DNA from: Nitrospira defluvii
GTDB taxonomy: Bacteria > Nitrospirota > Nitrospiria > Nitrospirales > Nitrospiraceae
Direction of reading: 5' to 3'
Length of the DNA: 64,000 nt
Assembly: GCA_000196815.1 (NCBI GenBank)
Contig: FP929003.1
Location: forward strand, 3,867,501 to 3,931,500
Shown here: piece by piece, positions 8,125-40,462 of the stretch
How the letters are laid out: the number at the start of each line of letters is the position of its first letter
How positions within the stretch are numbered: the first letter of the stretch is position 1
Translations under genes and position numbers: made by a program
Notes under the pieces: generated by a model
Seen by the model: the letters and a program-made list of their open reading frames with translations, nothing else
What the model was told of the DNA's origin: nothing
Database searches by the model: none

Positions 8125-9483
8125 TCAGAACAATTGTTCGATTTCGCCCTTCGCCCGCGCAAGATTGATGCGAGACGCATTGAAACGGAACAGCGCCTCG
8201 ATCAGATTGTCACGCGCGCGCGCCACCGAGGTCTGGGCGTTCGTAATTTCAATATTGGTCGCGAGTCCGGCAGCGAAACGGTCCCGCGCAAACGTCAGTT
8301 CCTTCATCGCCAGGGATAATCCTTTCTCGGCCACCGCCACTTGCTGCGTGGATGAGTCGAGCGTGAGCAGCGCGTTTCGAACTTCAAGTGTCACCTGATC
8401 CGAGACGTCCTTCATACGGATCAGTTCCTGCCGCACACGGCTCCGGCTTTCGGAAATCCGTCCCTCCCGTTGTCCGCCGTCGAAGATGGGCACCGACAGC
8501 ATCAGCCCGACGGATCGCGTCGCCAAGGCTTCATCCGGCTTGAGCCCGATCCACCCATAGTCGCCGTTCAAGGACAGAGAAGGAATCCGCTCACTGGTCA
8601 CGGAACTGAGACTGAGCGACGCCAGCTTTTGGCGCGTGAGCTGCGCCTTCAATTCGGCGCGATTCTCGCGGGCTACCGACAGAGCCGTTTCGGGAGTTTG
8701 AGATTCGACGGTGGCGAGGGTGAGCTCGTCGGTCAACGTCACCGTGACGTTGAAATCGATACCCAACGCACGGATGAGGTTCAGCTTCGCGCTCTCGTGA
8801 TCGTTCTGGGCCACAAGGAGTCGCTGGCGTGTATTCTCAAGCTGCACTTCTTCACGTGTCACATCCAGCCCCGTGGCGACACCCGCCTGTTTTCGATCCT
8901 GCGCCAGCTTCAACAGCTGCTGACTGAGTTCGAGATCCGCCAGCCTGGCCTTCACCGCCGCTTCAGCCCTGGAGGCTTCCATATACAGAAGTCCTGCCGT
9001 AGCCATCACGTCGCGCTTGGTAACTTCGGCCTCAAATCCAGCCACATCGACGCCGGTTTTCGCCGCCCGCCAGCGCTGAATCAGACTCAGGCTGAATATG
9101 TTCTGCACGAGACTGGCCCGCGCGTTGTAGACATCGAACGGTTCGGTCACGGGTCGCTGCAGCCCCAAACCGGAAAGTCTGTCCGGTGGAAATCCAAAGG
9201 CTGCGAGATTGACGGTTTGATTGCTCCCGCTCATGAACCCGGATACGTTGGGCAATAGCGCCCCCAGGCTGGTACTGGCCGCCGATTGGGCCGCCACGAT
9301 CCGCTCTTTCAGCAACCGCACATTCGCATTATTGTCGATGGCGGCCTGAATCGCCTCGTGCAAACTCAATCGCAGCTCGGGGGGCCCGGGCGGCGGCTCG
9401 GCAGCCGAACCGGGAGTCCACGGCTGGACGATGAAGATAGAACACACCTGCGCCAATAAGCAGAGTCTCCATAACCGCCTCAC
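8125..9483 (-). CDS. TolC-family outer-membrane efflux protein
   Basis: Outer-membrane channel for the RND pump encoded upstream. It has 452 residues with a signal peptide ending near GSAAEPP, and two tandem outer-membrane-efflux repeats rich in long alpha helices (for example LHEAIQAAIDNNANVRLLKE and LSVARENRAELKAQL). The second repeat contains VPIFDGGQREGRI, a family hallmark. It starts at GTG with AAAGGAGGG upstream. A 246-bp gap separates it from the pump gene, so it may have its own promoter. The C-terminus ends at EQLF, matching the family length. Confidence 0.9.
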   Translation of the reverse strand: MRRLWRLCLLAQVCSIFIVQPWTPGSAAEPPPGPPELRLSLHEAIQAAIDNNANVRLLKERIVAAQSAASTSLGALLPNVSGFMSGSNQTVNLAAFGFPPDRLSGLGLQRPVTEPFDVYNARASLVQNIFSLSLIQRWRAAKTGVDVAGFEAEVTKRDVMATAGLLYMEASRAEAAVKARLADLELSQQLLKLAQDRKQAGVATGLDVTREEVQLENTRQRLLVAQNDHESAKLNLIRALGIDFNVTVTLTDELTLATVESQTPETALSVARENRAELKAQLTRQKLASLSLSSVTSERIPSLSLNGDYGWIGLKPDEALATRSVGLMLSVPIFDGGQREGRISESRSRVRQELIRMKDVSDQVTLEVRNALLTLDSSTQQVAVAEKGLSLAMKELTFARDRFAAGLATNIEITNAQTSVARARDNLIEALFRFNASRINLARAKGEIEQLF

Positions 9484-25269: not shown

Positions 25270-26232
25270 CTACTCTTTCGTCATCGAGACCTTCATTCCC
25301 GCATCTTCCTTGGCATCCTGCGCGCACCGGAATCCCATCCAATTGATCTTCGTCTTGGGATCGGTGCCGTTCCGCATGGCTGCTCGCATCGTGGTGGTGC
25401 TATCCATCCAACCGCCACCGCGGAAGGCTTTCTGCGTTCCGGTTTCCGGTCCCTTCGGATTCCGACCCGGCGCGGTCTTGTAATAATCCTGGTCGTACCA
25501 ATCGGACACCCACTCGGCCACGTTCCCGATGGTTTGATAGAGACCGTAGGGACTCAGCGCATTCTCGTACTTATCGACGGAAATGATCGGCGGATAGAGC
25601 AACAACCGTTCAGGTCGATCCCGCACCGGCCCGGACAATCCGGTTCTGCCGAAATTGGCCCTGGTCGGACCGGCATATTCGCTGCCCCATGGAAACAGTC
25701 TGCCATCCACTCCACGCGCTGCCTTCTCCCACTCGGCCTCCGTCGGCAACCGCTTCCCCGCCCATTTGCAATAGGCATCGGCGTCATACCAGTTCACATG
25801 CATGATCGGATGATGCGCCATCGTGTCCTGGAAATTACCTCCATCGTACCGCCAGTCCAATTGCGGCAGACGATCCGTGGCGAGGACAAACTTGAGATAC
25901 TCGAGCGCGGTCACTTCGTACTTACCGATCATGAATGCATCCAGATACACGGATCGTTGGGGAATCTCGCTCCGATACGCCAGGCGATCCGTCTTCTTAT
26001 CGCTGCCCATGAGGAATTCGCCGGCCGGAATGAGGACCATTTCCTCCTTGGTCTTCCATTTTGCGACCCGTTCCTGCGCGATTTTCTTGCCTTCTTCCGT
26101 CCACTCGATCACGATGTCTTGTGTATCCAACGCCCGTGCGGCCGGAGCCAGCGCGAACAGCGCGGCTCCGATGACGAGGGCATGCGCCAACCGTGCCCGT
26201 TTCCTTTTGATACCCATGTGCAGTCGTTTCAT
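25270..26232 (-). CDS. Exported SUMF1-fold protein (FGE-sulfatase-like, copy A)
   Basis: Exported protein of 320 residues with a signal peptide ending near AARALDT. The SUMF1/FGE domain is clear: VLIPAGEFLMGSD near 65-77, GKYEVTALEYLKF, KRLPTEAEWEKAARG, GNVAEWVSDWY and GFRCAQD at the end. The catalytic Cys pair of true formylglycine-generating enzymes is absent (FRGGGWMDSTTTMRA in that position), so it is probably not an active FGE. AAGGAGG precedes the ATG at 26232. It follows copy B by 31 bases in the multicopper oxidase cluster. A role in assembling or anchoring that oxidase is inference. Confidence 0.88.
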   Translation of the reverse strand: MKRLHMGIKRKRARLAHALVIGAALFALAPAARALDTQDIVIEWTEEGKKIAQERVAKWKTKEEMVLIPAGEFLMGSDKKTDRLAYRSEIPQRSVYLDAFMIGKYEVTALEYLKFVLATDRLPQLDWRYDGGNFQDTMAHHPIMHVNWYDADAYCKWAGKRLPTEAEWEKAARGVDGRLFPWGSEYAGPTRANFGRTGLSGPVRDRPERLLLYPPIISVDKYENALSPYGLYQTIGNVAEWVSDWYDQDYYKTAPGRNPKGPETGTQKAFRGGGWMDSTTTMRAAMRNGTDPKTKINWMGFRCAQDAKEDAGMKVSMTKE

Positions 26233-26263
26233 CTCTGGCCTCCTTGTTGTCCTGCCGTCACAC

Positions 26264-27196
26264 TCAGCGATCCGCATTCCGTAGAATGCCCGGATCAATG
26301 GACGAAAGCTGACGACCACTCTCGCCCGAGGTTGCGCAACGAAACCCTGTCAAGTAACTCCAGTGATCCAGCCCCCCCGAGTTACGCCCGGCTGAACGGG
26401 CGACCTCGGGATCTTCATTCCATGACCCACCGCGAAATACCTTGTCCTGTCCCGACGCCGGTCCCTGGGGATTGCGGTTCTCTTGCCGCCGGTAATATTC
26501 CGGATCGAACCAGTCTGAGACCCACTCGCTTACATTGCCGGCCAGTTGATGCACGCCGTAAGGACTCACACCGTTATCGTAACGATCCACATTCGCCAGC
26601 GGCGGATACTTGGCCCCGCGTTTCGAACCCGGATGGGCGATGTTGCTCTTGATCCATCCAGCCGGCTCATTGCCCCAGGGAAACATCCGTCCGTCTTCAC
26701 CGCGCGCCGCCTTTTCCCATTCCGCTTCGGTCGGTAAGCGGGCCCCGCGCCACCGGCAATAGGCATCGGCTTCCCGCCAGGAGACGCCGATGACCGGATG
26801 TTTGGCCATCTTGTCCGGAAACGGCTGGGCTCGCCAGTAGTGGGGCCATGCCGCGCCGGCCGCCAGTACGAAGCGCAGATAGTTCACATTGCTGACTTCA
26901 TACCGGTCGATGCTGAACGCATCGACATAGACCTGATGCTGAGGCAGTTCCTGCGGTCCGGCGGCCCGATCAAACTTCGGGTCGCTCCCCATCAGGAATG
27001 GACCGCCCGGCACCGGCACCATCCCGTCCGGCACCTCAGTCAAAGCCAACCGCTCTACATCATCAAGCGGGGACCAGAGCGGCGGCGGCTTCGGCAACTC
27101 ATGGTCGGCGTGGCTCGGCGCAACGGAGCCGAATACCAGCCCGGCGGCAAGGCCCAGCACAAGAGCCGGAATTAAACCAGGTAACCGGATGTCCAT
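26264..27196 (-). CDS. Exported SUMF1-fold protein (FGE-sulfatase-like, copy B)
   Basis: Protein of 310 residues with a signal peptide ending near PSHADHE. The SUMF1 domain hallmarks are MVPVPGGPFLMGSDPKFD, RYEVSNVNYLRFVL, ARLPTEAEWEKAARG, GNVSEWVSDWF and GFRCATS. It lacks the FGE cysteine pair (FRGGSWNEDPEVARSAG there). It is a clear paralogue of the next gene; the two share nearly identical motif order and probably arose by tandem duplication. ATG at 27196 with GGAG upstream. It lies 83 bases after the cupredoxin gene. Confidence 0.88.
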   Translation of the reverse strand: MDIRLPGLIPALVLGLAAGLVFGSVAPSHADHELPKPPPLWSPLDDVERLALTEVPDGMVPVPGGPFLMGSDPKFDRAAGPQELPQHQVYVDAFSIDRYEVSNVNYLRFVLAAGAAWPHYWRAQPFPDKMAKHPVIGVSWREADAYCRWRGARLPTEAEWEKAARGEDGRMFPWGNEPAGWIKSNIAHPGSKRGAKYPPLANVDRYDNGVSPYGVHQLAGNVSEWVSDWFDPEYYRRQENRNPQGPASGQDKVFRGGSWNEDPEVARSAGRNSGGLDHWSYLTGFRCATSGESGRQLSSIDPGILRNADR

Positions 27197-27279
27197 TACA
27201 CGATCACTCCGGACTCACTGATCCATCCGATCAGTGAGTCCACTGATTCACGAACATTTCGGCACGCGCGCGCCCCCAC

Positions 27280-28269
27280 TCAGTGCGCTTGCTTTTGCAG
27301 CAGGGGATCGATTTCCTTCTTCGCTTCCTCGGTCACGTTATAGCGGGTATACGCATGGTCCAGAACCTCATTGGCATACAACCGTCCGGTCGGCGCCGGA
27401 ACTCCGATCGTGGCCTCGACGGTGCCCTTCGGGCCGATGGTGACGGTTTGTTCCGTCGCGGTCCTGATATAGGGATGCCAGATGACCAACTTATAGGTAC
27501 CCGGCGGCACATCGGTCATGGTGAACCGGCCCTGCTCGTCCGTCTTGGCAAAGTATGGATTCGTGATGGCAACGCCCCAGCTCTCCATGTAGGCATGAAA
27601 TCCGCACTGCATGACGAAGATCCGGCGGCCTTTGCTGAGTTTCACCAACTCTTTCATCGGCGGACCGGCCATGTGCTTGTGATACATCCCGGCCTCCGTG
27701 CGATCCTTGAAATTGCGTGGATGCTGCGGATTCATCGGAAGCGGCACGTTGAACAGGACCCGCGCGCCTAAATTCGACGTTTCGTAGGCCTGAATGTCGT
27801 GCATCACGGGGTCCATGTTGACGACGGTGACCGACTGATCGTCCCGCACCACGGTGGTAAACGGCAGGAAGAGGCAATCCTTCGCTTCTATTTGCGGCAC
27901 CTCTTTTTCAGCGAACGCTTTTCCCTTCTCGATCCCCTCCAGATACACGACGACTTCCCGAAACTCGCCTCCCGGACCGACGTTGAACGGTTGCAGAATG
28001 CGCCAACCTTCTCCGTCGGAAATGCGCCCGCAATAGAACGGGTCCGGCAGCGTGGTGAGGTTGTACCCTTTCGGCTTCGGAACCGTCCCCTCCAACTTCA
28101 CGATTCCCGTCAGTGTCCCGCCATCCGATACGCTGACTTCTTCATAGGCCGATACAGGGCTGCTCGCGAGAGACGATGCGAGGGCCACCGTAGCCAATCC
28201 CAAGACCCACCCGAAAGAACTCTTCTTCATCGTCCGCTGTTCACTCTGCATTGTGGTACCCAGTGTCAC
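27280..28269 (-). CDS. Periplasmic cupredoxin-type protein with carboxypeptidase-regulatory-like domain
   Basis: Exported protein of 329 residues counted from a GTG at 28269, which has GAGGAGG six bases upstream; ATG starts at 28251 and 28230 are alternatives. Signal cleavage is near PVSAYEE. A cupredoxin-like region has candidate type-1 copper ligands His157 (VMHDIQAY), Cys222, His225 and Met228 (QCGFHAYM). Residues 236-275 look like a carboxypeptidase-regulatory beta sandwich (EQGRFTMTDVPPGTYKLVIW). It lies between the giant multicopper oxidase and the SUMF1 pair and is a natural candidate electron carrier or copper donor for that oxidase (inference). Confidence 0.78.
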   Translation of the reverse strand: MTLGTTMQSEQRTMKKSSFGWVLGLATVALASSLASSPVSAYEEVSVSDGGTLTGIVKLEGTVPKPKGYNLTTLPDPFYCGRISDGEGWRILQPFNVGPGGEFREVVVYLEGIEKGKAFAEKEVPQIEAKDCLFLPFTTVVRDDQSVTVVNMDPVMHDIQAYETSNLGARVLFNVPLPMNPQHPRNFKDRTEAGMYHKHMAGPPMKELVKLSKGRRIFVMQCGFHAYMESWGVAITNPYFAKTDEQGRFTMTDVPPGTYKLVIWHPYIRTATEQTVTIGPKGTVEATIGVPAPTGRLYANEVLDHAYTRYNVTEEAKKEIDPLLQKQAH

Positions 28270-28369
28270 GTCCGGCCTCCTCTGTGATTGGTCCATGATA
28301 CGATCGACAGATCTCATCGATCATACAAGGAACCCATCACCTAATTCCTCTCCCGAAACTCAAAACGCA

Positions 28370-28431: not shown

Positions 28432-31400
28432 TTACTTCATGGCAGTCGGAATCGCCTGCGGCTCGGGCAGCACTTCAGCTTGACGTGCACCCGCTCCACT
28501 TGCGCTGAGAGGCTGAATTCGCGCATCGCCGGTCGGCAACACGCGCAGATAGCCCCACTGTCCGGACTGCGTGTAGGGCAGCCGTGCATTCGACCACACG
28601 AAGTCGCCCACCTGACGATACGGTCCGCCCGCACCGCCACGGATGAAGACATCGAGGATCTCAGATCCGGCATACTCCACCACGCTGATCATGTCGGCAC
28701 CCGCCATGTACGGCTCGATCGGCCACTCGTGGCCCTCGACGCTGAACATGCCGTTCTGCTCGCTGTTCGCTCCGATCACATGGATACGGAGCGCATCACC
28801 CGCGTGCGCCTCGATCAACGGCGTCACGGGATCTTCGGGCTTATCCACCGCGCAAGGCTGGAAGATTTTGCCCAAGGAGCACCCTTGTTCTTCGCGGAAC
28901 TTGTACGGTTCAGCGCGGTAGTTCACCGACGTCAAACCGGCCACGTTCTGCACGTAGGGCATGAAGGCGGTTCCGATGATGTTGTCCTCATCCTGGAAGA
29001 AGAGGGCCACGTCACGATAGTTCCGCTTTCCGGCATTTTCAGACAAGGTGGTGTCGACGATGACGTCGGCCCGCCATGTATTCTTCTGTGACACATCGGC
29101 ACCGGTGACTGGATCACGATACTGCGATCCCTTCGGCCCGATGACGATCGCGCCGTACAATCCGTTGCGCGGATTGACGACGATGTTACCACCGTCCCAC
29201 ACCAACGACGTCGTTTCCTTGTTTGCAGGATGCGCGTAGTAGGTATAGGTGCGGCTCTCGCCCGGAGCCACGGTCTGATCGCCGGCATTGTTGCCGACAT
29301 TCAAGCCCTGGCTGTCTTTCGGATCGAAGGCCAGGCCCGGCGCAAAGAACGACGCCCGGCTCGCCTTCATCTTGTTCTTCAATTGCACCTTGATGCAATC
29401 GCCCAGATTGGCGCGCAGCGTGAGCGGATTCGGCATCACGTTGCCCGCGACGGTCGCGGCTTCTTCCTCCAGCGCGAAGATCTTGCCTTCCGGCATGGTC
29501 ATTTCGATCTTCCGCTCGAAGTCCACCTCGATCGCATCCGGGGCCTTCGGATTGAGCTTCATCGGGCGATCCAACGCCACGACGTTGAAGCTCTTCACCG
29601 GAGCATCCGACGGACACACGGAATTGGGAGTCGCCGGAATCCCGAGAGGATTGGTCCCCTTGGGCAGCGGCTTCAAGTCCGCCACTTCCTTGTCGAGCAC
29701 GCGGATGATGCCCCATCCACCTTCGGCAAAGTGTGACGTTCTGCCGTTGAAGTGGATGTAGTCGCCCGGCATACCCTGGAATCCACCCGCCTTGGTGACG
29801 AGGTCGTACCGCTCGGCGATCCCGACGTGAATCGAGTTCTTCCGGTTGGCTTCCGGCGCATACCGCTCCGTGAGGAAGGTATGTCCGGCGATCGTCCAGA
29901 CGTGGGATTCGTTCATCAGCTGGTGCAACAGACGGAACACCATGGTGTCGCCCGTGTACGCCCGGAGAAGCGGCGTGCCCGGATCACCGTGGATCGCGCT
30001 GCTGAACAGCTTGGACGTGTCAGGATTGTTGGACAGGCGTTGTGCAAACGGAGCCGCGCGGAAGTTGAACCCGCTGCCGGTCGTGTGCGTGCCGCCGTTG
30101 ATGTACTTGTTCGGCGCATTCAGGATCTTGTCCGGCATCTGGAAGGACACCGTTTTTCCTGCTTCCAACGCCACTTCGATCGGCTGTCCGGGAGGATTGC
30201 CGGCTTCGATGACGTTGACGGTGTGCGGAACCGTGTCGTGGATGGAGACCATCAACTCACGGAAGCTGCCGCTGACACCGGCACCGATCGGCTCGTTGCT
30301 GTGAATGTCCGCGATCGGACCGCTATACACCAACTTGCCGTTCTTCGGATCATGGTAGGTGGATCCGAATGGCTCCACGATCGTCACGCCGAACCCGCCA
30401 TGGGGCCAGGTCGTCGCGCCGAACGCGTGGTCATGCCAGAACACCGTACCCATATCCACGTCCACCCACCACCGATAACGCACAAACTCCGGCGACACGA
30501 GATCGCCCGCCGGGTGATGGTGCTTCAGCGGCTTGAAGAACGTGACGACATCGCCCTTGATTTCCTTGACCCGGGCGACTTCCTGACAGCTCTTATCCCG
30601 CGGCAGTGAGGCCGCCGGATCGTTACCCTTCTCCAAACAATCCATACCGACCATCAACTCGGTGTTGACGTGGAAGGCCGTGGCGCCGGGCGCCATCTGG
30701 ATCTTAACGGAGGTCGCACCAGCTTTTGCTTCACCGGTCAACTTCGCCACCATCGGAGCCGGCAAACCATGCTTGGTCTTCTTCCCCCACATGGTGAACG
30801 GCCGGACCGACATTTCGTACTCCATCCCGGAGATGACACCGTCGGAATTTCCGGTGTCGAACTGGAAGAAGTGGGGATGGATGTTGATCTTGGACGACTG
30901 GAAGTTCGTGTAATCGTCGTCGTCCCACTCGCTGGTCAACAACAAGTCCACGCAGTCATACACGTTGGCGCGGATGACGGCGGGCAGTTTCAGATCGTCA
31001 TTGGCTCTGGTCAAACGCTCTTCTTCGTGAAGGACGTAGATCAGGCCGTCCTTGTCCACCATGGCCGGCTCTTTCCCCTGCTTCTTGGCAAGGGTGATCG
31101 GCATGCGGACAAAGTGGATGTTGTAATGCTTCCGATTGGCGTTGTCAGGGCACAGGCTCCAACGGCCCTGTTCGCCCGGCATCGCCGGCTCGGAGGTCCG
31201 CTCACCGTTTGCATCCTGGTGAATCGGCTCCAACCATGGCGCACCGCTGTGGTTCGCCGAGAACGGCACGCGCTTGCCGAAGTGCGGCTTGAACAACGGC
31301 CAGGCCATTTTCCCTGTCGTCGGATCGAACAGGATCGCCGGTCTGGTGCTGTCATCCCACTTGGCGGCCCATGCATACTTCGGATTCGGGGCAGTGCTCT

Positions 31401-33369
31401 CCCGCTCGCCGCGGGCGATGTTGCCGTCCCACTTCCAGTCCCACACCGTCGAATCGTAGGCCATGATCTGGCCCTTCTCATCGTTGGTGTGGCCCGGTTG
31501 ACCCTGGGCCGGCACGAACATCTCGACCCAATCCTTGATGTTCACGATCACAGGATCGGACTTCCAGTTCGTCTTCTGGCTCTTGTCGACGATCTTGAAG
31601 GTCTTGCCGAACCAGTCGACGGTCGAGCCGATCAACTTATCGGACGAGACACCCTGCTTCATGCGGCCCAAACGATCGGGCAATTCCCGCATATCCGGCA
31701 TCGTGTCGGTGTGCGCATTGCCGACCTGCAACGTATTGTAGAACCGGCCGTACCCCCACATGCCCGCCACATAGTGGTGCGCGACGTGGCAGTGATAGAG
31801 GAATTCGCCGGCCAGGTGCTGACAGCCACCGCCGCCGCACTCCGGCTCCAGGTCAAGGGCCTCAGAGGGACCGACGACTTCGACGTCGACCCGATCCGAC
31901 TTCGTCCGGACCACCGGATATTTCACCGGACCGTCCTGCCCCTTGTACCAGTGCTCTTCCTGATCGGCACGCGGGCTGCGCTGCCAACGGATGGTTCCGC
32001 TGTGGGGATGGTGGGAGTGGAACACTTCGGATCCACCATGGACCAACCGCCACTTGACCGGATCACCGAGGTAGCCGCGGGCCACCGTGGTGGGAGGGTC
32101 ACCGAAGGTGTAGGCGCTGTAGGCCAGCGACTCATCTTCGAAGCCGAAATATTCATGCTGCAAATGCATCTGATCGATACCGAACGGCTCGCTGCGATAG
32201 TTGATCGCGCGGCCACCCGGACGATAGGCGTCCGTCAACGGATCGCGCTGCGGCAAGAAGTCACCCTTCTTGTTCAGCGGCCGGAAAGCTTCGTCGCCGA
32301 TCTCGTGATAGAACAACACGAACTCGCGAAAGTCCGGTCCGGACCCGTTGTCGATCATGACCTGCCATCCGCTGTTGGTATCAGGCGCGGCGCCCGTGCC
32401 GAGCGGATCGAGGTACTTGGAGCCCTTCGGTTCGACGATGAAGGCGCCGAAGAGGCCCAACACCGTCAACTCGCGATCGTGGCTCCAGGAGTGGAACTGA
32501 CGCACACCTTCCTGCATGTTCGGATGGATGTACCACTCGAACTCCTGCGCCTTGCCAGGCGAGACCACCGTGTCCGGATTGGTCGTCGTGGCGGGCTTTC
32601 CAGTGGAGCTCACAATCATGCTTGAGGCTTGGATGACCAAGCTGCCATCCTCGCCTTCCATCTGATTGCGCAGCGTCATCTTGACGCAATCGCCCTGGTT
32701 CGCACGAAGCACCAGCGGCTGAATCGCATCGCCCTGGTTTCCGGTCGTGACGGCTCCGGGATCGAATCCGTCTTTTTCCCGCGCTTCCTTGTTCTTGGTT
32801 TCCTCGGCGCGAACCTTGTCGATCTCCCCGGTATGGACGTACATATACCCGGGATAGAAGTCGAGCCACCGGTTCAAGCTGATTTCGATGTTGATCATCG
32901 ACACGTCGTACTTCTTGACCGGCGCATTGGCGGGACATTTTCCGCCGGACGTCATGACCGGTTCACCCTTCGACGAATCGGAGGCGAGCAGGAAGCTGCT
33001 GCCATCCTGCCCCATATACTGGTGCATCATCGACATTTCGTTGAATGCACCGGAGGTCTGCTGCGCCTTCGCATCCGTCTGCGCCTGCTGTTCCAACTTC
33101 TCCATCAGGCGATGATGCTGCATCTCCATCTTCTCTGCATTCCCGGCACGACCCTCCATGGCGTTTTCCACCACGGTCTGACCCTTCAGGGTCTGGGTCC
33201 AGCCCGGCATGGCGACCGGCGTCGCATGCCCATCATGCGACTGATCGCCCGGACCAGCCGCAAATACCCACGGCGCCGCGAGCAAACTGCCCGAGAGCAG
33301 CGCCGCCTGCAGGCTCAGCATCGCTTTACGACTGATGCGCCTGCGTTTTGACTGCACTGAAGACCTCAT
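28432..33369 (-). CDS. Giant exported multicopper oxidase
   Basis: Protein of 1,645 residues, three times the size of a laccase. The N-terminus KRRRISRKAML with a hydrophobic stretch and AAG fits a Tat-type signal. Many cupredoxin domains are present. Copper motifs: YHCHVAHHYVAGM with His526-Cys527-His528 and the axial Met (type 1 plus type 3 ligands), HPH at 831-833 in NIHPHFFQF, and WHDHAFGATTWPHGG at about 978-992 (His979, His981). A further HSHHPHSGTIRW lies near 455-466. Giant MCOs of this size include the Mn(II) oxidases MnxG and McoA of Pseudomonas; that substrate is a hypothesis here. GGAGGGAGG precedes the ATG, and a sigma54 promoter stands 240 bases upstream. Confidence 0.9.
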   Translation of the reverse strand: MRSSVQSKRRRISRKAMLSLQAALLSGSLLAAPWVFAAGPGDQSHDGHATPVAMPGWTQTLKGQTVVENAMEGRAGNAEKMEMQHHRLMEKLEQQAQTDAKAQQTSGAFNEMSMMHQYMGQDGSSFLLASDSSKGEPVMTSGGKCPANAPVKKYDVSMINIEISLNRWLDFYPGYMYVHTGEIDKVRAEETKNKEAREKDGFDPGAVTTGNQGDAIQPLVLRANQGDCVKMTLRNQMEGEDGSLVIQASSMIVSSTGKPATTTNPDTVVSPGKAQEFEWYIHPNMQEGVRQFHSWSHDRELTVLGLFGAFIVEPKGSKYLDPLGTGAAPDTNSGWQVMIDNGSGPDFREFVLFYHEIGDEAFRPLNKKGDFLPQRDPLTDAYRPGGRAINYRSEPFGIDQMHLQHEYFGFEDESLAYSAYTFGDPPTTVARGYLGDPVKWRLVHGGSEVFHSHHPHSGTIRWQRSPRADQEEHWYKGQDGPVKYPVVRTKSDRVDVEVVGPSEALDLEPECGGGGCQHLAGEFLYHCHVAHHYVAGMWGYGRFYNTLQVGNAHTDTMPDMRELPDRLGRMKQGVSSDKLIGSTVDWFGKTFKIVDKSQKTNWKSDPVIVNIKDWVEMFVPAQGQPGHTNDEKGQIMAYDSTVWDWKWDGNIARGERESTAPNPKYAWAAKWDDSTRPAILFDPTTGKMAWPLFKPHFGKRVPFSANHSGAPWLEPIHQDANGERTSEPAMPGEQGRWSLCPDNANRKHYNIHFVRMPITLAKKQGKEPAMVDKDGLIYVLHEEERLTRANDDLKLPAVIRANVYDCVDLLLTSEWDDDDYTNFQSSKINIHPHFFQFDTGNSDGVISGMEYEMSVRPFTMWGKKTKHGLPAPMVAKLTGEAKAGATSVKIQMAPGATAFHVNTELMVGMDCLEKGNDPAASLPRDKSCQEVARVKEIKGDVVTFFKPLKHHHPAGDLVSPEFVRYRWWVDVDMGTVFWHDHAFGATTWPHGGFGVTIVEPFGSTYHDPKNGKLVYSGPIADIHSNEPIGAGVSGSFRELMVSIHDTVPHTVNVIEAGNPPGQPIEVALEAGKTVSFQMPDKILNAPNKYINGGTHTTGSGFNFRAAPFAQRLSNNPDTSKLFSSAIHGDPGTPLLRAYTGDTMVFRLLHQLMNESHVWTIAGHTFLTERYAPEANRKNSIHVGIAERYDLVTKAGGFQGMPGDYIHFNGRTSHFAEGGWGIIRVLDKEVADLKPLPKGTNPLGIPATPNSVCPSDAPVKSFNVVALDRPMKLNPKAPDAIEVDFERKIEMTMPEGKIFALEEEAATVAGNVMPNPLTLRANLGDCIKVQLKNKMKASRASFFAPGLAFDPKDSQGLNVGNNAGDQTVAPGESRTYTYYAHPANKETTSLVWDGGNIVVNPRNGLYGAIVIGPKGSQYRDPVTGADVSQKNTWRADVIVDTTLSENAGKRNYRDVALFFQDEDNIIGTAFMPYVQNVAGLTSVNYRAEPYKFREEQGCSLGKIFQPCAVDKPEDPVTPLIEAHAGDALRIHVIGANSEQNGMFSVEGHEWPIEPYMAGADMISVVEYAGSEILDVFIRGGAGGPYRQVGDFVWSNARLPYTQSGQWGYLRVLPTGDARIQPLSASGAGARQAEVLPEPQAIPTAMK

Positions 33370-33393
33370 ATGTCGGCCTCCCTCCTTTATAAT

Positions 33394-33411
33394 CCCGCGC
33401 CCTTCCGCGGG
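33394..33411 (-). promoter_or_regulatory. Small hairpin next to the oxidase ribosome site
   Basis: CCCGCG (33394-33399) and CGCGGG (33406-33411) form a 6-bp GC stem with a six-base loop. In the minus-strand mRNA it ends a few bases before AAAGGAGGGAGG, so it could influence access of ribosomes to the oxidase start. Confidence 0.5.
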
Positions 33412-33435
33412 AGTGGTTAAAAAACGTGGTCGTGT

Positions 33436-33594
33436 GACCGGCCTCCGTCAGGCAGGACCCCGGCTCCTCCGGCCTCTCCTTGTTCCCTCCACGAAACGCT
33501 CCCAAAAGGAAAAAGGGCTGGTGAAGGATGTCCTCAAAGTTCGAGGGAGCAGGTCATTCGGAGGCCGGTCCTAATCACCCGCACCTTCACCAGC
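33436..33594 (-). promoter_or_regulatory. Interleaved inverted repeats in the oxidase 5' leader (possible pseudoknot or RNA switch)
   Basis: Two perfect inverted pairs are present. GACCGGCCTCCG (33436-33447) matches CGGAGGCCGGTC (33559-33570), 12 bp. GCTGGTGAAGG (33517-33527) matches CCTTCACCAGC (33584-33594), 11 bp. Their order is B-A-B-A, so both can form together only as a pseudoknot; otherwise they are alternatives. They lie within the predicted leader from the sigma54 promoter at 33608. A translation or termination switch is inferred. Confidence 0.55.
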
Positions 33595-33607
33595 ACTGCC
33601 CAACATC

Positions 33608-33621
33608 GCAATTGATGTGCC
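33608..33621 (-). promoter_or_regulatory. sigma54 (-24/-12) promoter of the multicopper oxidase
   Basis: The minus strand reads GGCAC-ATCAA-TTGC, an exact match to the core GGCAC-N5-TTGC with the invariant GG and GC ten bases apart (the base before GG is G, not T). Transcription would start near 33597, giving a leader of about 228 bases to the ATG at 33369. The next gene upstream encodes a sigma54 activator, which supports it. A short palindrome CTAGG-GGTCGT-CCTAG (33624-33639) lies just upstream of the -24 element. Confidence 0.72.
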
Positions 33622-33944
33622 CCACTAGGGGTCGTCCTAGCCGGACTGAAATCTTCTATATTTTTAAGGTGTTGGAGAGTTATGTAGGAAATTTTGAACC
33701 GGCGTAAAATGCCACAGTTTTCCAGACGATTAGACAACACAACCAGAGGCAGAGATGAACACTTAAAATACAATCACTTAGACTGTCCAAACTGCTGTAC
33801 ATCAAATCGTGGATTTTGGGGCGATACGGGACAGCTTCCCCGGTTAGCGGTTACGAATGGAGAGCCATCGGACTGATCCTGGAGAGAATTAGTATTGACG
33901 CAAGGAGCGGGTGAGGGGCCTAAAAACAGGCTCTCTGAGATGAG

Positions 33945-35348
33945 CTACTGAATACCGAGTTCGTGCAGCTTATTGTAGAGACTGGCCCGGCTGATTTTAA
34001 GGACACGAGCCGCTTGCACCCGATTCCCGGAGGTCTGCTGCAATGCCTGAAGGATACGCGTCCGCTCGGCCTGCCGAGCCGCACCCCGGCCGACCGTCCT
34101 GAGGTCGGTATCCTGAGGATGACTCCCCAGCTCGACCAGATCCGCACAGGTTAACTCCGTATGGATGGTGGTCACCACGGCTCGCTCGATGTAATGCTGC
34201 AACTCGCGAACATTCCCTGGCCAGGGCGCAGCGGTCAAGGCGCGCATAGCCTCTTCACTCACCTGGCGCAAATCCTGCCGATGCCGCTGGCAGGAGTCGG
34301 CAATAAATTTCGTAACCAAGAGTGGGATGTCTATCCTCCGGTCACGTAAGGGCGGCAAATGAACGGGCAACACGGCCAGCCGATAGTACAGGTCCTGACG
34401 AAACGCCTTTGCCTTGACCAAATCGGTCAGATCCTTATTGGTGGCAGAAATGACACGGACATCGATCTTGACCGGCTGTGTCCCGCCGACTCGCTTGATC
34501 TCGCCTTCTTGCAAGACTCGAAGAAGTTTAGCCTGGAAGGTAGGAGAGGTATCGGCGATCTCGTCCAGGAAGATCGTGCCGCCGTCGGCTTCTTCAAACA
34601 GACCGGGCTTGGACCCGGCTGCTCCGGTAAAGGCGCCTTTGACATGGCCGAACAGCTCACTCTCCAGCAACGTTTCCGGGAGCGCCCCGCAATCGACCAC
34701 CACAAAAGGCTTGTCACGACGATAGCTCGTCTGGTGAATGGTCCGCGCCACGAGTTCCTTTCCCGTGCCGCTTTCCCCCTGGATCAACACCGTGGCCGAA
34801 CTGTCGGCCACCAACCGGATCATTTCAAAGAGCTGATTCATGGCAGGACTCGCACCGACCAGATCGCCCAGCCTCGATTCGGTCCGCTCCGGGCGCGAAC
34901 GACCGGGCCTTTGCTGCGACAGCGACGCTGGAATGCTGAGCGGCTCCGGCCGCTTGTGAAACAGGACGAGAATGGAGCCCACCTCTCCCGCGGAGGAGAC
35001 AAGCGGAAAAGCCTGGTGCATACCACAGGCAGTCCCGTCGCCCGACGTGCTACAGGAGACTGTGAGCACTTCCCCGGTCTTAAACACCGACTCAGCCGGA
35101 CAAGTCCCACAGGGGTCTGTCATTTGAACGAAGGACTGAAAGCACTTGGCCGGCTTGGTTCCCGCCGGCGGCTTCCCTGACTTCCCCCAGGCTGCCTCGT
35201 TGGCATAGACGACATTGAGCTCCCGATCCATCACCGCGACGCGATCGGTCAGTCCATCGGCCAATTGCCGAAGCGCTTCCAAACGAGCGGCCAGAATCGG
35301 ATCGGCAAAGGGGGAAGAGGGCGTTACCTGTGAGTGAGATCCGGCCAT
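33945..35348 (-). CDS. PAS-domain sigma54-dependent transcriptional activator
   Basis: Enhancer-binding protein of 467 residues from the ATG at 35348 (GAGGAG seven bases upstream). Residues 25-135 are a PAS domain with Cys69, Cys80, Cys83, Cys99 and Cys108 ([10 protein letters not shown]), a cluster that could hold a metal or redox centre. The AAA+ domain has Walker A GESGTGKE (191-198), GAFTGA (238-243) for sigma54 contact, and Walker B GTIFLDEI (257-264). A Fis-type helix-turn-helix forms the C-terminus ([21 protein letters not shown]). There is no receiver, so it senses a signal directly. It lies next to the oxidase promoter and is its likely activator (inference). Confidence 0.92.
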
Positions 35349-35489: not shown

Positions 35490-35894
35490 TCAGTGAAACA
35501 GTCCATCCTCGGACCGGCCTCCTGGATGTTGCAGGAGTTGCTTGACCGTCGCTTTCAGCTCCGACAGCCTGACCGGCTTGTCAAAGTAGGCCGTCGCGCC
35601 GCTTTTCATCGCCTCATCCTTGGTCTGTGCGTCACCGAAGGCGGTCATGACGATAATCGGACAACCGGGCACACAGCGTCTCAATCGATGCACATAGTCG
35701 AAACCACCGGCCGGCATTTTTAAGTCAGTCACGATCAGATCGGGGGCCGCTCGCATGACCGCAGCCAGCCCCTCGTCCCCGTTGCTGGCCTCGCGTAACT
35801 GGTATCCCTCTCCCCACAACTCATCGCAGAGCAAGCTCCGCATATCCTTATCATCTTCCACCACCAGGAGGACGGCTGGTGTTCGGCTTTCCAC
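35490..35894 (-). CDS. Stand-alone response-regulator receiver protein
   Basis: Single receiver domain of 134 residues: acidic pocket VVEDD near the start, phospho-acceptor Asp in VTDLKMP, Thr in MTAFG and Lys in FDKP. There is no output domain, so it probably relays phosphate or acts by protein contact. The start is chosen as GTG at 35894, with GAGGG eight to nine bases upstream, because a consensus sigma54 promoter at 35936-35950 would start transcription near 35924. An ATG at 35921 would leave almost no leader. It sits between the histidine kinase and the PAS activator genes, on the same strand. Confidence 0.85.
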   Translation of the reverse strand: MESRTPAVLLVVEDDKDMRSLLCDELWGEGYQLREASNGDEGLAAVMRAAPDLIVTDLKMPAGGFDYVHRLRRCVPGCPIIVMTAFGDAQTKDEAMKSGATAYFDKPVRLSELKATVKQLLQHPGGRSEDGLFH

Positions 35895-35935
35895 CTTCGA
35901 GCCCTCGGAATAGATCACCATGGGGACGACACAAC

Positions 35936-35950
35936 GCAAACCATGTGCCA
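35936..35950 (-). promoter_or_regulatory. sigma54 (-24/-12) promoter of the receiver gene
   Basis: The minus strand reads TGGCAC-ATGGT-TTGC, an exact match to the sigma54 core consensus including the first T. The predicted start of transcription is near 35924, about 30 bases before the GTG start at 35894. This is the best sigma54 site of the window and helps choose the start codon. Confidence 0.75.
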
Positions 35951-36078
35951 CTCGCGCCGGCGTGCGAACACGAGCAACTCCTTGTATTCACTGGATAACT
36001 AGCCGCGAAGGTTTTTGCAAACAGGGGGCGTATGCATCAGCCTCTGGCGAGAAAGACCCCACCCTCAGAAAAAGCCCT

Positions 36079-36201: not shown

Positions 36202-38880
36202 TCAGCTCTTGTCTATCGGCAGGCAAATGGTGAAAGTCGTCCCCCGCTCAGGCTCACTCTCCACCTCAATCGTTCCGCTGTGTTCCTCAATGATGCCCTT
36301 CACCACCGTCAAACCTAACCCGGTTCCCTTCCCGAACTCCTTGGTGGTGAAAAACGGGTCGAACACCTTGGCGATCACGTCGCGGGGCATCCCGTGGCCG
36401 GTATCCGCTACCGTCAACCGGACCATGCCACGGTCCGGCGTCAGGGCTAGTTTCAACAGGCCCCCTCCGGGCATCGCATGGATCGCATTCATCACCAGGT
36501 TGATCAAGACCTGGCTCATCTGATCGGCATCGGCATGCACCAAGGGGCAGGCGTCGGCAAAGGAGGTTTCTACGCTGATGTTGCTGTGCGACAGGCGCTC
36601 CTGGAAAATTTCCAGATTGTCCTCGATGGTCTGGCGCAAGTCCAAGGCACGGTGTTCGACCGGACGTCGCCGGGCAAACGCGAGCAACTGGTTCATCACC
36701 CGCGTAATTCGTTCGACCTGACTGACGATAGTTTGGAGCCCCTTCCTGACCGGCTCCTCCTTCGTGCGTTCCATCAGATATTCGGCCCGTCCCAGAATCA
36801 CGTTCATGGGTGTGCCGATCTCGTGCGCCATGCCGGATGCCACCGTTCCCAGTTCGGCCACGCGCTCCGTCCGGCGAAGTTGCGCCTGCAAGCGCTTCCG
36901 CTCCGTGATGTCGCTGGCAATGCCGTCGATGCGCAACGGACGGCCTTCGGCATCCTTGATGACCCGCCCGCGGTCGTGCAGCCAACGCAGATCACCGTCG
37001 AGCCTGACGATGCGATACTCCACATCGAACTCCCCCATGGTCGAGAGGGCCTGTCGCGCCTGTTCCGCAATCACACGATCGTCGGGATGAACGGCTTCCA
37101 GCCATAACGAGGGCCGGGCTAAGAATGCGTCGGTCGGACGGCCATAGATTTCCATCACGGACGGACTGACATAAAACATCGTGGACAGATCCAGCGACGA
37201 CGACCAGATGACATCCTCCATCGCTCCCAATAAACTTTGAAGCCGCTCTTCGCTCTCCCGCAACTTCTGTTCGGCCGCTTTGCGCATTGAAATGTCCCGC
37301 AAGACGACCAGTATCCCGAACCCCTCTTCGTCCTGGAACCGAGCGGCCCTGACAGCCACATCCACACTCACCCCGTCCAAGCGCACGATCTTTTCCTCGA
37401 CCTCAGGCACCGTGTTCCCGGGCCTCAGGAGATGCCGGATCCGTTCACCGATCAGCTCGTGGTAGTCGGGATGCGCCAGATCGTACAGCGATTTGCCGAG
37501 AATCTCCTCTCCCGACCGGGCCCCGAACAACCGAACCCCCTGTTCGTTGGTAAAGATGATCCGGCCCTCACGATTGACCAGGATGGCATCCGGCAAGACC
37601 GCCAGGAGCCGGCGATACCGGTCTTCGCTTTGGCGCAGCAGCGCCTCGGTCTTTTTCCACTCAGTTACATCGCGCGTCACACCCAAGACGGCCGTCACGG
37701 TGCCGTCGGCCGATCGCAGCGGCACCACATGCGTATCCAGCCAGCGATGAGTCCCCAGGAGACCGACCATTTCAAACTCCAATCGTCCCGCTTCCCCCCG
37801 CCCGGCTTTGCCGACCAGCTCACGGTAGACCGATCGAAATTCGTCGGTGACCAGGCGGCAGGCATCCCGTCCGATGACGTCGGCACCGCTCGTCGCCTCG
37901 ATCATGGCCAGACCTGCAGCATTGATGGTCCGGATTGTGCCATCCAGATTAAGCAGCTTCACACATTCGGGCTCGGTCTCAATAATCGCCCGTAACAGGG
38001 CCTCGCGTTCCGCCAGCTCCTGCTCGAGCCGTATGCGTTCGGTAATGTCGCGGAGGATGACGGTGTAATACCGCGTCCCTTCCACACCGATCTGCGAGAT
38101 CGCGGCTTCGATCGGAAATTCCTCTCCGTTGGCCCGGACCCCCATCACCATACCCAGCGCGCCCATTTGGCGCGTCGTGATACCGGAACGGCCGAACTCC
38201 CGGATATGCTCATCATGGGCGCTGCGGAAACGCTCGGGAAGCAGTCGATCCAGCGGCCGCCCCAGTACTTCCTCGGCGCCCCACTGAAACATCTTTTCCG
38301 CCGCCTGATTGAACAGCACGATCTTGTGGGCTTCGTCGACGGTAATGATCGCGTCCATCGCTGAGTGCACGATACCTTCGAAGCGAAGTTTGTCCTGATG
38401 CAGTTCCGCTTCGGCACGACGTTGTCCGTCCACCGCACCGACCACCGCCGCTTCAGCCCGGGCCCGCGCTTCCGCGTCCGAAGCCCCGATTGCCTCCGGT
38501 TGATGCCGCTCAGCCCGAGCCGTCGTAAACGCCTGGGACGACAGGCCCGGGCTCCCAGGAGAAGACCGACGGCGGGCAACCAGCGCGGCCACGGTCCCCA
38601 TGATCCCGATGCCCAGCAGACGATTGAGCCCTGTGAAGGGCGACAGGGATCCGGCGGAGGACACAAGAGGGCCGATGAACGCCAGCAACGCCACCAGGCC
38701 CATACCATAGAGGCGAACCTGCCCGAGTGAGGACGCCGCGATCAGAGTGAACGGAATTGCATATAGCAGCCACAGGTCGATCCCGGCAGGCGCCGACAGA
38801 TCCAGGACGAAGATCCCGACCGTCAGCAACAGAGGAAGGCCGCATTCGAACAGCGGGGATTTCTGATGAAGGGGCTGCAC
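36202..38880 (-). CDS. Multi-PAS sensor histidine kinase
   Basis: Protein of 892 residues. About four N-terminal membrane helices (15-100) are followed by four PAS domains (roughly 170-290, 300-410, 420-540 and 550-660), then HisKA with the phospho-acceptor His in MAHEIGTPMN and a HATPase domain with NLVMNAIHAM (N box), DTGHGM and GTGLGL. The output is phosphorylation of a response regulator, most likely the NtrC-type protein encoded 36 bases upstream in the same direction. It starts at GTG with GGGAG upstream. The ligand is unknown; no haem or flavin motif is clear. Confidence 0.9.
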   Translation of the reverse strand: MQPLHQKSPLFECGLPLLLTVGIFVLDLSAPAGIDLWLLYAIPFTLIAASSLGQVRLYGMGLVALLAFIGPLVSSAGSLSPFTGLNRLLGIGIMGTVAALVARRRSSPGSPGLSSQAFTTARAERHQPEAIGASDAEARARAEAAVVGAVDGQRRAEAELHQDKLRFEGIVHSAMDAIITVDEAHKIVLFNQAAEKMFQWGAEEVLGRPLDRLLPERFRSAHDEHIREFGRSGITTRQMGALGMVMGVRANGEEFPIEAAISQIGVEGTRYYTVILRDITERIRLEQELAEREALLRAIIETEPECVKLLNLDGTIRTINAAGLAMIEATSGADVIGRDACRLVTDEFRSVYRELVGKAGRGEAGRLEFEMVGLLGTHRWLDTHVVPLRSADGTVTAVLGVTRDVTEWKKTEALLRQSEDRYRRLLAVLPDAILVNREGRIIFTNEQGVRLFGARSGEEILGKSLYDLAHPDYHELIGERIRHLLRPGNTVPEVEEKIVRLDGVSVDVAVRAARFQDEEGFGILVVLRDISMRKAAEQKLRESEERLQSLLGAMEDVIWSSSLDLSTMFYVSPSVMEIYGRPTDAFLARPSLWLEAVHPDDRVIAEQARQALSTMGEFDVEYRIVRLDGDLRWLHDRGRVIKDAEGRPLRIDGIASDITERKRLQAQLRRTERVAELGTVASGMAHEIGTPMNVILGRAEYLMERTKEEPVRKGLQTIVSQVERITRVMNQLLAFARRRPVEHRALDLRQTIEDNLEIFQERLSHSNISVETSFADACPLVHADADQMSQVLINLVMNAIHAMPGGGLLKLALTPDRGMVRLTVADTGHGMPRDVIAKVFDPFFTTKEFGKGTGLGLTVVKGIIEEHSGTIEVESEPERGTTFTICLPIDKS

Positions 38881-38916: not shown

Positions 38917-40296
38917 CTACGCGTCTGAGTGTGGTTTGCCTTCGATTTCGGCAAGTTTCCGATACAGGGTCTTCCGGTCGATACCCAGGACGTGCGCGGC
39001 CTGATACTTGTTGCCGCCCGTCTTTTCCAAAATTTTCACGATGTACTCTTTTTCCACTTCGTGCAGCGGCAGGGTGCGTTCCGCGGCCTCATCGAGAATC
39101 CGGCGATCCCCTCTGGATCCTTGCACCTGCACCGGCAAATCGTCCGCGCCGATCATGTCCCCATGGCTCAGCGTCACGGCCCGCTCAATGACGTTCTCCA
39201 ACTCCCGCACATTCCCCGGCCAGGCATAGTCGGCCAGCATGGCGAGGGCGGATTCGCTGAGGCCCTTGACCTGCTTGCCCCTGCTGTCGGCGCACTTCTT
39301 CAGAAAGGCATCCACCAGAATCGGAATATCTTCCCGGCGTTCCCGTAACGGGGGAAGGCGCAACTCGATCACATTGAGGCGATAGTAAAAATCTTCGCGG
39401 AATCGCTTATTCTTTACTTCTTCGGCCAGGTTCAAGTTCGTGGCGGCGATGATGCGCACGTCCACGGGAATGGATTTGGTCGCCCCCACGCGGCGGATTT
39501 CCCGCTCCTGAATCGCCCGCAGAAGTTTGGCCTGGAGCATGAGCGGAAGTTCGCTGATTTCATCCAGAAACAGCGTGCCTTTTTGTGCTTCTTCGAAGAG
39601 CCCGCGCTTGTCCATTTTGGCGTCTGTGAACGAGCCGCGCATGTGCCCGAAGAGTTCACTTTCCAGCAATTGTTCAGGGATCGCGGCGCAGTTCACCGGG
39701 ACAAACGGCGCATCCCGCCGGTCGCTGTTGTAATGAATGGCCTTGGCGACCAGTTCTTTTCCCGTTCCGCTCTCTCCCGTGATCAACACGTTGGTCGGAC
39801 TGTCGGCCACGCGTCGAATCAAATCGAAGACCGCCTGCATCGGTTTGCTCTTGCCGAGGATCTGATGAAAGCTGTACTCCTTGTGGACCTCTTTCCGTAG
39901 CCGGCTGACTTCGCGCCGGAGCGCCGCTTCCCGGATCGCGCGCTCGACCACCCGTACCAGTTCCTCGGTTTTCACCGGTTTGGTTAGATAGTCGCTGGCG
40001 CCATGCCGGATCGCCTCGACGGCTGTCTCCACGGATCCGAAGGCCGTCATCAAGATCACGCCGATGTCGGGGTACCGTTGCTTCACCTCGGCCAACAGCT
40101 CGGTGCCTAACATACCTTTCATGCGGAGGTCGGTCAGGACCACGGCGTAGTCCTCCTCGCTCAACTGCTGCAGCGCGTCGTCACCGCTGCCGACGCCCGT
40201 GCATTGATGCCCGCGACCCTGCAGGACATCGCACAGCAGGCTGCGCATGTCGGCATCATCGTCGACCACCAGAACGGCACCCCATTCCTCAGTCAT
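38917..40296 (-). CDS. NtrC-family response regulator (receiver, AAA+, Fis)
   Basis: Regulator of 459 residues from the ATG at 40296, with GAGGGAG upstream. The receiver has Asp56 (VLTDLRMK) and Lys106. The AAA+ domain has Walker A GESGTGKE (174-181) and Walker B GTLFLDEI. The loop that contacts sigma54 reads GSFTDA (221-226) instead of GAFTGA, a departure that may change or abolish sigma54 activation. The Fis-type helix-turn-helix is GNKYQAAHVLGIDRKTLYRKL. It forms an operon with the histidine kinase downstream, and a sigma54 promoter for the divergent MacA-like gene lies upstream, its likely target. Confidence 0.92.
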   Translation of the reverse strand: MTEEWGAVLVVDDDADMRSLLCDVLQGRGHQCTGVGSGDDALQQLSEEDYAVVLTDLRMKGMLGTELLAEVKQRYPDIGVILMTAFGSVETAVEAIRHGASDYLTKPVKTEELVRVVERAIREAALRREVSRLRKEVHKEYSFHQILGKSKPMQAVFDLIRRVADSPTNVLITGESGTGKELVAKAIHYNSDRRDAPFVPVNCAAIPEQLLESELFGHMRGSFTDAKMDKRGLFEEAQKGTLFLDEISELPLMLQAKLLRAIQEREIRRVGATKSIPVDVRIIAATNLNLAEEVKNKRFREDFYYRLNVIELRLPPLRERREDIPILVDAFLKKCADSRGKQVKGLSESALAMLADYAWPGNVRELENVIERAVTLSHGDMIGADDLPVQVQGSRGDRRILDEAAERTLPLHEVEKEYIVKILEKTGGNKYQAAHVLGIDRKTLYRKLAEIEGKPHSDA

Positions 40297-40382
40297 ACAG
40301 CTCCCTCGCGTGCGCCTCTCACCAACCCTCCAGCCTGTGCGCGCACAGCCTAATCGGCTTACTCCCGGGCGGTCAAGGGGCG

Positions 40383-40393
40383 TCCTGCCGCAG
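40383..40393. promoter_or_regulatory. Possible enhancer palindrome for the MacA-like gene
   Basis: CCTGC-C-GCAGG is a perfect palindrome about 117 bases upstream of the sigma54 promoter at 40510, within the divergent region between the NtrC-type regulator and the adaptor gene. Binding by that regulator is inferred from position. Confidence 0.35.
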
Positions 40394-40462
40394 GTCATTG
40401 CCGCCTGCTGTCGCGAAATGCCCCAGCATCACTCGCAGACCAATCTTCCAGCCGTCGAGCTC

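Follow-up and report, generated by a model that had tools for sequence, protein, structure and literature searches.

A sigma54-like motif stands upstream of a giant multicopper oxidase gene of Nitrospira defluvii, beside the gene of a sigma54 activator. The locus lies in a stretch of 64,000 nucleotides (contig FP929003.1, positions 3,867,501 to 3,931,500 of the forward strand), which is referred to below as the window and whose numbering is used unless the genome is named. Nitrospira are the main nitrite oxidizers and comammox organisms. The arrangement raises the question of whether the motif is a genuine promoter driven by the neighbouring activator, and what the RNA that would start there does. 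The features of the locus are collected in Table 1.

Table 1. Features of the MCO1 locus, in window coordinates
Feature	Positions	Strand	Description
Giant MnxG-like multicopper oxidase (MCO1)	28432..33369	minus	1645 aa; PDB 9bxa MnxG, E=1.6e-83
MCO1 ribosome-binding site GGAGGCCG	33374..33381	minus	complementary to 8 nt of the loop
Three-way-junction RNA	33513..33594	minus	P1, 33594-33584 with 33527-33517; P2 with invariant loop; P3; from covariation and covariance model
Invariant loop GGACCGGCCTCC	33560..33571	minus	exact reverse complement of the MCO2 ribosome-binding site GGAGGCCGGTCC
sigma54 promoter GGCAC-ATCAA-TTGC	33608..33621	minus	predicted transcription start about 33596; from conservation
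Upstream activator site 2	33720..33735	minus	GTCTA-N6-TGGAA; 65 bp downstream of site 1
Upstream activator site 1 (UAS)	33785..33800	minus	GTACA-N6-TGGAC here; consensus YGTCYA-N6-TRGACR, 16-bp palindrome
sigma54 enhancer-binding protein (activator)	33945..35348	minus	467 aa, GAFTGA, Fis-type HTH, no receiver domain; from Pfam and alignment

Orthologues of MCO1 are present in nearly all genomes of the family. The protein is clearly similar to the MnxG manganese oxidase, but its match to the NCBIfam MnxG model is partial and scores 110 bits, far under the equivalog cut-off of 3100. Downstream of MCO1 (25270-28317, minus strand), genes for a carboxypeptidase-regulatory-like protein and two formylglycine-generating-enzyme-like secreted proteins are found, possibly in one operon.

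The sigma54 promoter and its activator

The motif, GGCACATCAATTGC, has 10 bp between the GG and GC dinucleotides of its -24 and -12 elements, which is the spacing of a sigma54 promoter, and lies 239 nt from the oxidase ATG. An earlier, sequence-only reading had placed a correctly spaced and oriented sigma54 site about 240 bases before the oxidase start, and both the site and the distance stand. By itself, a single copy of such a motif in one genome is not above chance: 26 sites with at most two mismatches to the consensus were found in the window, versus 28.3 expected. Comparison across relatives gave a different result. Of the Nitrospiraceae regions upstream of the oxidase, all 84 with the RNA element described below have GGCAY-N5-YTGC at a fixed position, with nearly invariant GGCA and TTGC boxes around a freely variable spacer. 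Family-wide, the motif is present before MCO1 and its spacer likewise varies freely. In 84 out of 84 regions the RNA structure began 12-15 nt (mode 14) past the best site, a geometry that agrees with a sigma54 transcript start 12 nt after the -12 box, and the score of the site was reached in shuffled sequence with a probability of about 0.001. In a comparison of the intergenic stretch with 29 genus genomes, the block that remained conserved in diverged members (query 324-575, that is, 33621-33370) had its 5' edge exactly on the sigma54 motif and extended to the start codon. Because the motif is conserved across relatives, and not because of motif counts in the window, we conclude that evolutionary evidence confirms the promoter as real. 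The transcript start, given earlier as near 33597, is corrected slightly to the predicted position in Table 1, which is 1-2 nt ahead of the structured RNA.

The next gene upstream encodes, as had been noted together with its intact GAFTGA loop, a sigma54 activator. Its AAA+ sigma54 interaction domain (Pfam PF00158, E=1e-72) carries GAFTGA and is accompanied by the HTH, the features of an enhancer-binding protein. A Response_reg match was absent from the protein in the Pfam search, so that it does not qualify as an NtrC-type response regulator. Three cysteines of the N-terminal region, Cys80, Cys83, and Cys108, were invariant in an alignment of 18 orthologues from two families, and this region matched no Pfam family. 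Since a receiver domain is lacking and the three cysteines are invariant, the activator is best read as a one-component sensor, and the cysteines suggest that it may sense metal or redox state; the earlier label of "sensor" is retained in this more specific form. Like NtrC/NifA/NorR-type proteins, the activator has a sigma54 interaction domain with GAFTGA, a Fis-type HTH, and palindromic upstream sites, but it differs from them in its cysteine-bearing N-terminal region, and it falls under the NCBIfam cut-offs of all named members listed. An AlphaFold model of the protein was poor (mean pLDDT 55.6) and was left unused. Activator orthologues were found in 128 out of 147 family genomes.

Two palindromic sites lie between the activator gene and the promoter. 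The strict palindrome occurred in 76 out of 82 genomes, versus 1.9 expected after shuffling, and in 75 of the 82 it was located at -175..-194; site 1 of the source genome has one mismatch to this consensus. A second, one-mismatch copy (GTCYA-N6-TRGAA) was present at -109..-118 in most genomes, 65-67 bp nearer the promoter. A combined UAS and promoter pattern, searched in the 29 genus genomes with the reversed pattern as a control, matched exactly one locus in 27 genomes, and the reversed pattern matched none. The activator thus seems to have a single target. The sister family also shows the order activator, promoter, RNA, and oxidase, as do paralogous cassettes whose oxidases are about 50-65% identical. 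In many genomes of genus g6, where the MCO1 copy is located apart from the activator, the promoter and UAS are still present. Taken together, the conserved promoter, the pair of upstream sites, the single locus per genome, and the kept gene order strongly support the view that the promoter is driven by the adjoining activator, a tie that had initially been drawn from position.

A second sigma54-like site, TGGCACATGGTTTGCG, was noted at 35935-35950 (minus strand), about 600 bp upstream of the activator start. It adjoins the 5' side of a stand-alone response regulator gene (35490-35951) and was kept, with a varying spacer, in all 24 genus genomes examined. This site may be driven by a neighbouring histidine kinase (36202-38880) and NtrC-type regulator (38917-40398).

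A structured RNA at the predicted transcription start

No other part of the region is as conserved as the leader. It contains an RNA element of about 80 nt, in which helices follow in the order P1 (11 bp), P2, P3, and P1'. Neither this RNA nor its match to a second oxidase gene, described below, was part of the earlier reading. The first base of P1 lies 1-2 nt past the predicted +1, so that the promoter itself would set the 5' end of the fold. In 39 diverse sequences, 94.4% of cells were paired, and double changes were seen at 11 pairs. Compensatory cells numbered 57, versus 16.5 in shuffled alignments, and none of 500 shuffles reached the observed value. RNAalifold, to which the structure was not supplied, returned the identical three-way junction. 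Compensatory changes therefore preserve the helices, as is required of a structured RNA. These data bear on the simplest account of the locus, in which an ordinary sigma54 promoter is followed by an inert 5' untranslated region. Its promoter and activator are well supported, but the account is contradicted by a leader that is conserved above the rest of the region and that carries compensatory base changes, and we consider it practically negligible. A leader peptide or other coding origin of the conservation was rejected, since the stems vary by compensatory changes and a loop by single-base insertions and deletions.

To a covariance model (R1) built for the element, the source genome, a single contig of 4,317,083 bases, gave one match (83.7 bits, 33594..33513). 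A scan of 395 genomes of the phylum returned the element from 102 Nitrospiraceae and 11 members of a sister family of the same order, with one false match elsewhere; among these genomes it was found only in Nitrospirales. Apart from the false match, all additional copies that were inspected precede a multicopper oxidase gene, and the activator was upstream in every case where the examined sequence extended far enough. A scan of named genomes found the RNA in N. moscoviensis, N. lenta, and a metagenome-assembled genome named N. defluvii. Many other Nitrospira also have it, among them CG24 and RSF, isolates that we take to be comammox. An RNA match in genome G197 and matches of the 20-mer in Nocardia and Acidobacteria look like chance, and the element only appears absent from genomes G014 and G080 because of contig ends.

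The element matched no family in Rfam at gathering or relaxed thresholds, and even E = 10 gave only noise. The papers searched describe neither this RNA nor sigma54 control of a Nitrospira oxidase, nor any small RNA or structured leader from Nitrospira. The element, which is known from sequence comparison, is previously undescribed. P1 is followed by C-U-U, and at least four U residues within 8 nt were present in 59 out of 84 genomes; some members of the family have a weak U tract or none.

Complementarity between the loop and the start of a second oxidase

The loop of P2 is GGACCGGCCTCC in nearly every genome, and its 3' half is an anti-Shine-Dalgarno sequence. Potential partners for it were found both in the same transcript and elsewhere in the genome. 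In cis, GGAGGCCG ahead of the MCO1 start is kept in most members of both families, which taken alone would point to cis control. In trans, the partner is the start of MCO2, a second MnxG-like oxidase, about 68% identical to MCO1 and encoded elsewhere. Upstream of MCO2, no conserved sigma54 site, UAS, or RNA element was detected. Its ribosome-binding site is AAGGAGGCCGGTCC-ATG (source genome, 3284634-3284648), within which the 12 nucleotides GGAGGCCGGTCC are the exact reverse complement of the loop. The duplex of loop and MCO2 has a calculated energy of -30.2 kcal/mol, versus a mean of -14.7 (sd 3.0) for 33 Shine-Dalgarno-like starts in the window.

The 12-mer is retained between genera, while the flanks on both its upstream and downstream sides are completely different. 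It is perfect in 35 out of 45 element-bearing genomes, which represent both families, and matches at 11 of 12 positions in most others; in two genera it is intact though placed one base farther from the MCO2 ATG. None of the genomes that lack both element and activator has a perfect copy (G074, 9/12; G083, 11/12; G051 and G038, 10/12 each), a comparison of four genomes only, two of them from one genus; the G083 copy differs solely by a U-G wobble. Element-bearing sisters from the genera of three of these genomes (G032; G071, G087, and G112) have the perfect 12-mer. For the first 30 genomes, the Fisher test gave p = 0.0026 (22 out of 26 versus 0 out of 4), uncorrected for kinship. Thus, complementarity to a ribosome-binding site encoded elsewhere is conserved, which is one mark of a trans-acting small RNA. 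Loop and target showed no true compensatory change in the genomes compared, because the loop hardly varies.

The match at MCO2 could also reflect a ribosome-binding-site habit of Nitrospira combined with the shared ancestry of the two oxidases, the loop being kept invariant for some other reason. In the source genome, GGAGGCCG before ATG is indeed frequent (56 sites), so that GGAGGCC is in part a local ribosome-binding-site habit, and GGAGGCCGG sites occur on other genes. Such a habit does not readily account for GGAGGCCGGTCCATG, which is found in the genus at one conserved gene per genome, namely MCO2, nor for the full divergence of the MCO2 upstream flanks between genera, nor for the imperfect 12-mer of all four element-free genomes. 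We regard this explanation as improbable.

Somewhat less improbable, though still unlikely, is that the RNA controls its own mRNA alone, for instance as a riboswitch or a leader that binds a protein, with the loop masking the GGAGGCCG of MCO1. A three-way junction with an invariant loop looks like a ligand-binding leader, GGAGGCCG or GGAGGCCA is retained ahead of MCO1 almost throughout the family and also in the sister family, and a U tract that is not universal past P1 fits a leader of this kind. Two observations are left unexplained by it. MCO2, which is without the element, retains a complement that is longer, 12 nt, and exact. In addition, two paralogous cassettes (G040, L217; and that of a third oxidase in the source genome, L168) have kept the loop despite having a ribosome-binding site other than GGAGGCCG, consistent with a trans target.

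Two further conserved copies of GAGGCCGG, AGAGGCCGGAG and CGGAGGCCGGTC, were observed in this genus in the stretch that separates MCO1 from the RNA element (33374-33530, minus strand). They are able to pair with the loop, as if they were decoys or alternative partners, and some genera are without them.

A predicted exchange of two oxidases

Comparative sequence shows the activator, the enhancer sites, the promoter, the RNA fold, and the conserved 12-nt complementarity. Our preferred reading, to which we assign a probability of about 0.72, is that the sigma54-dependent RNA has a dual role, as leader of MCO1 and as repressor of MCO2 in trans. According to this reading, the cysteine-bearing one-component activator would bind the two palindromic enhancer sites and fire the sigma54 promoter. 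Transcription would begin about 1-2 nt ahead of the three-way junction, so that the promoter opens directly into the RNA. Some transcripts would probably end past helix P1, at a hairpin with a short U tract behind it, and yield a small RNA of about 85-95 nt; the remainder would continue as MCO1 mRNA. The RNA hairpin GGA-CCGGCC-UCC would kiss the mirror-image hairpin GGA-GGCCGG-UCC at the MCO2 start, and the resulting 12-bp duplex, covering the MCO2 Shine-Dalgarno sequence just before the ATG, would block the ribosome. The 8-nt match to the MCO1 ribosome-binding site may add cis feedback that is weaker. Overall, MCO2 would be exchanged for MCO1.

We infer the transcript end after P1, the direction of control, and the nature of the inducing signal, metal or redox. 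That the pairing spans the Shine-Dalgarno sequence up to the start codon argues for repression of MCO2, activation being the alternative. Switching MCO1 on thus probably also controls MCO2. With somewhat less assurance than for the dual role itself, we favour a broader proposal, in which a new RNA family of Nitrospirales would do two things as a single sigma54-started molecule: form the structured leader of one giant MnxG-like oxidase, and turn off the sister oxidase in trans by means of a kissing hairpin with a perfect 12-nt match. Nitrite oxidizers and comammox organisms would in this way exchange the isoenzymes in response to metal or redox state.

Parts of such a system are known from other bacteria. 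The Qrr small RNAs of Vibrio are transcribed from sigma54 promoters activated by the enhancer-binding protein LuxO, and target ribosome-binding sites through a pairing region that is highly conserved. The Nitrospira RNA would share with them a sigma54 promoter under an enhancer-binding protein and a conserved anti-Shine-Dalgarno pairing region, but it differs in being also an mRNA leader, in its three-way junction and lack of an Rfam match, and in an activator without a receiver domain. SreA and SreB of Listeria, SAM riboswitch RNAs, are leaders with an additional action in trans. Nitrospira would likewise release a 5' leader element that pairs with another mRNA, but this one matches no known riboswitch family and is predicted to be sigma54-driven.

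By comparison across relatives, a motif that is weak in a single genome has led to a complete predicted regulatory circuit, and Nitrospira gains an RNA family for which activator, enhancer sites, start site, and target are all predicted. The two giant multicopper oxidases would be linked in one switch, which suggests that one takes the place of the other as metal or redox conditions differ and makes the role of both testable.

Several minor observations concern further copies of the loop, its complement, or the cassette. A gene for a secreted TIG-domain protein (L257, 988-1503; source genome 1553999, minus strand), located after an acetyl-CoA-synthetase-like gene, has a start, GGAGGCCGGTCATG, in which 11 nt are complementary to the loop. 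The site is conserved within the genus (several genomes) but drifts in other genera, two of which are without it; as a second trans target the gene was not accepted and is kept as a lead only. The third oxidase cassette of the source genome (L168, 3672-8585 and about 8620-8760; at 3.52 Mb) lies beside another sigma54 activator. It contains a hairpin, GTGGAAGACGATGGACCGGCCTCCGGAGTTTTCCAC, with the identical 12-nt loop and without the full three-way junction, and a sigma54-like sequence, TGGAACGGGAGTTGCT, is located upstream. Finally, some genomes (L202, L203, L204, and L206) have two or three cassettes composed of the RNA element and a giant oxidase, two of them in tandem within 6-10 kb.
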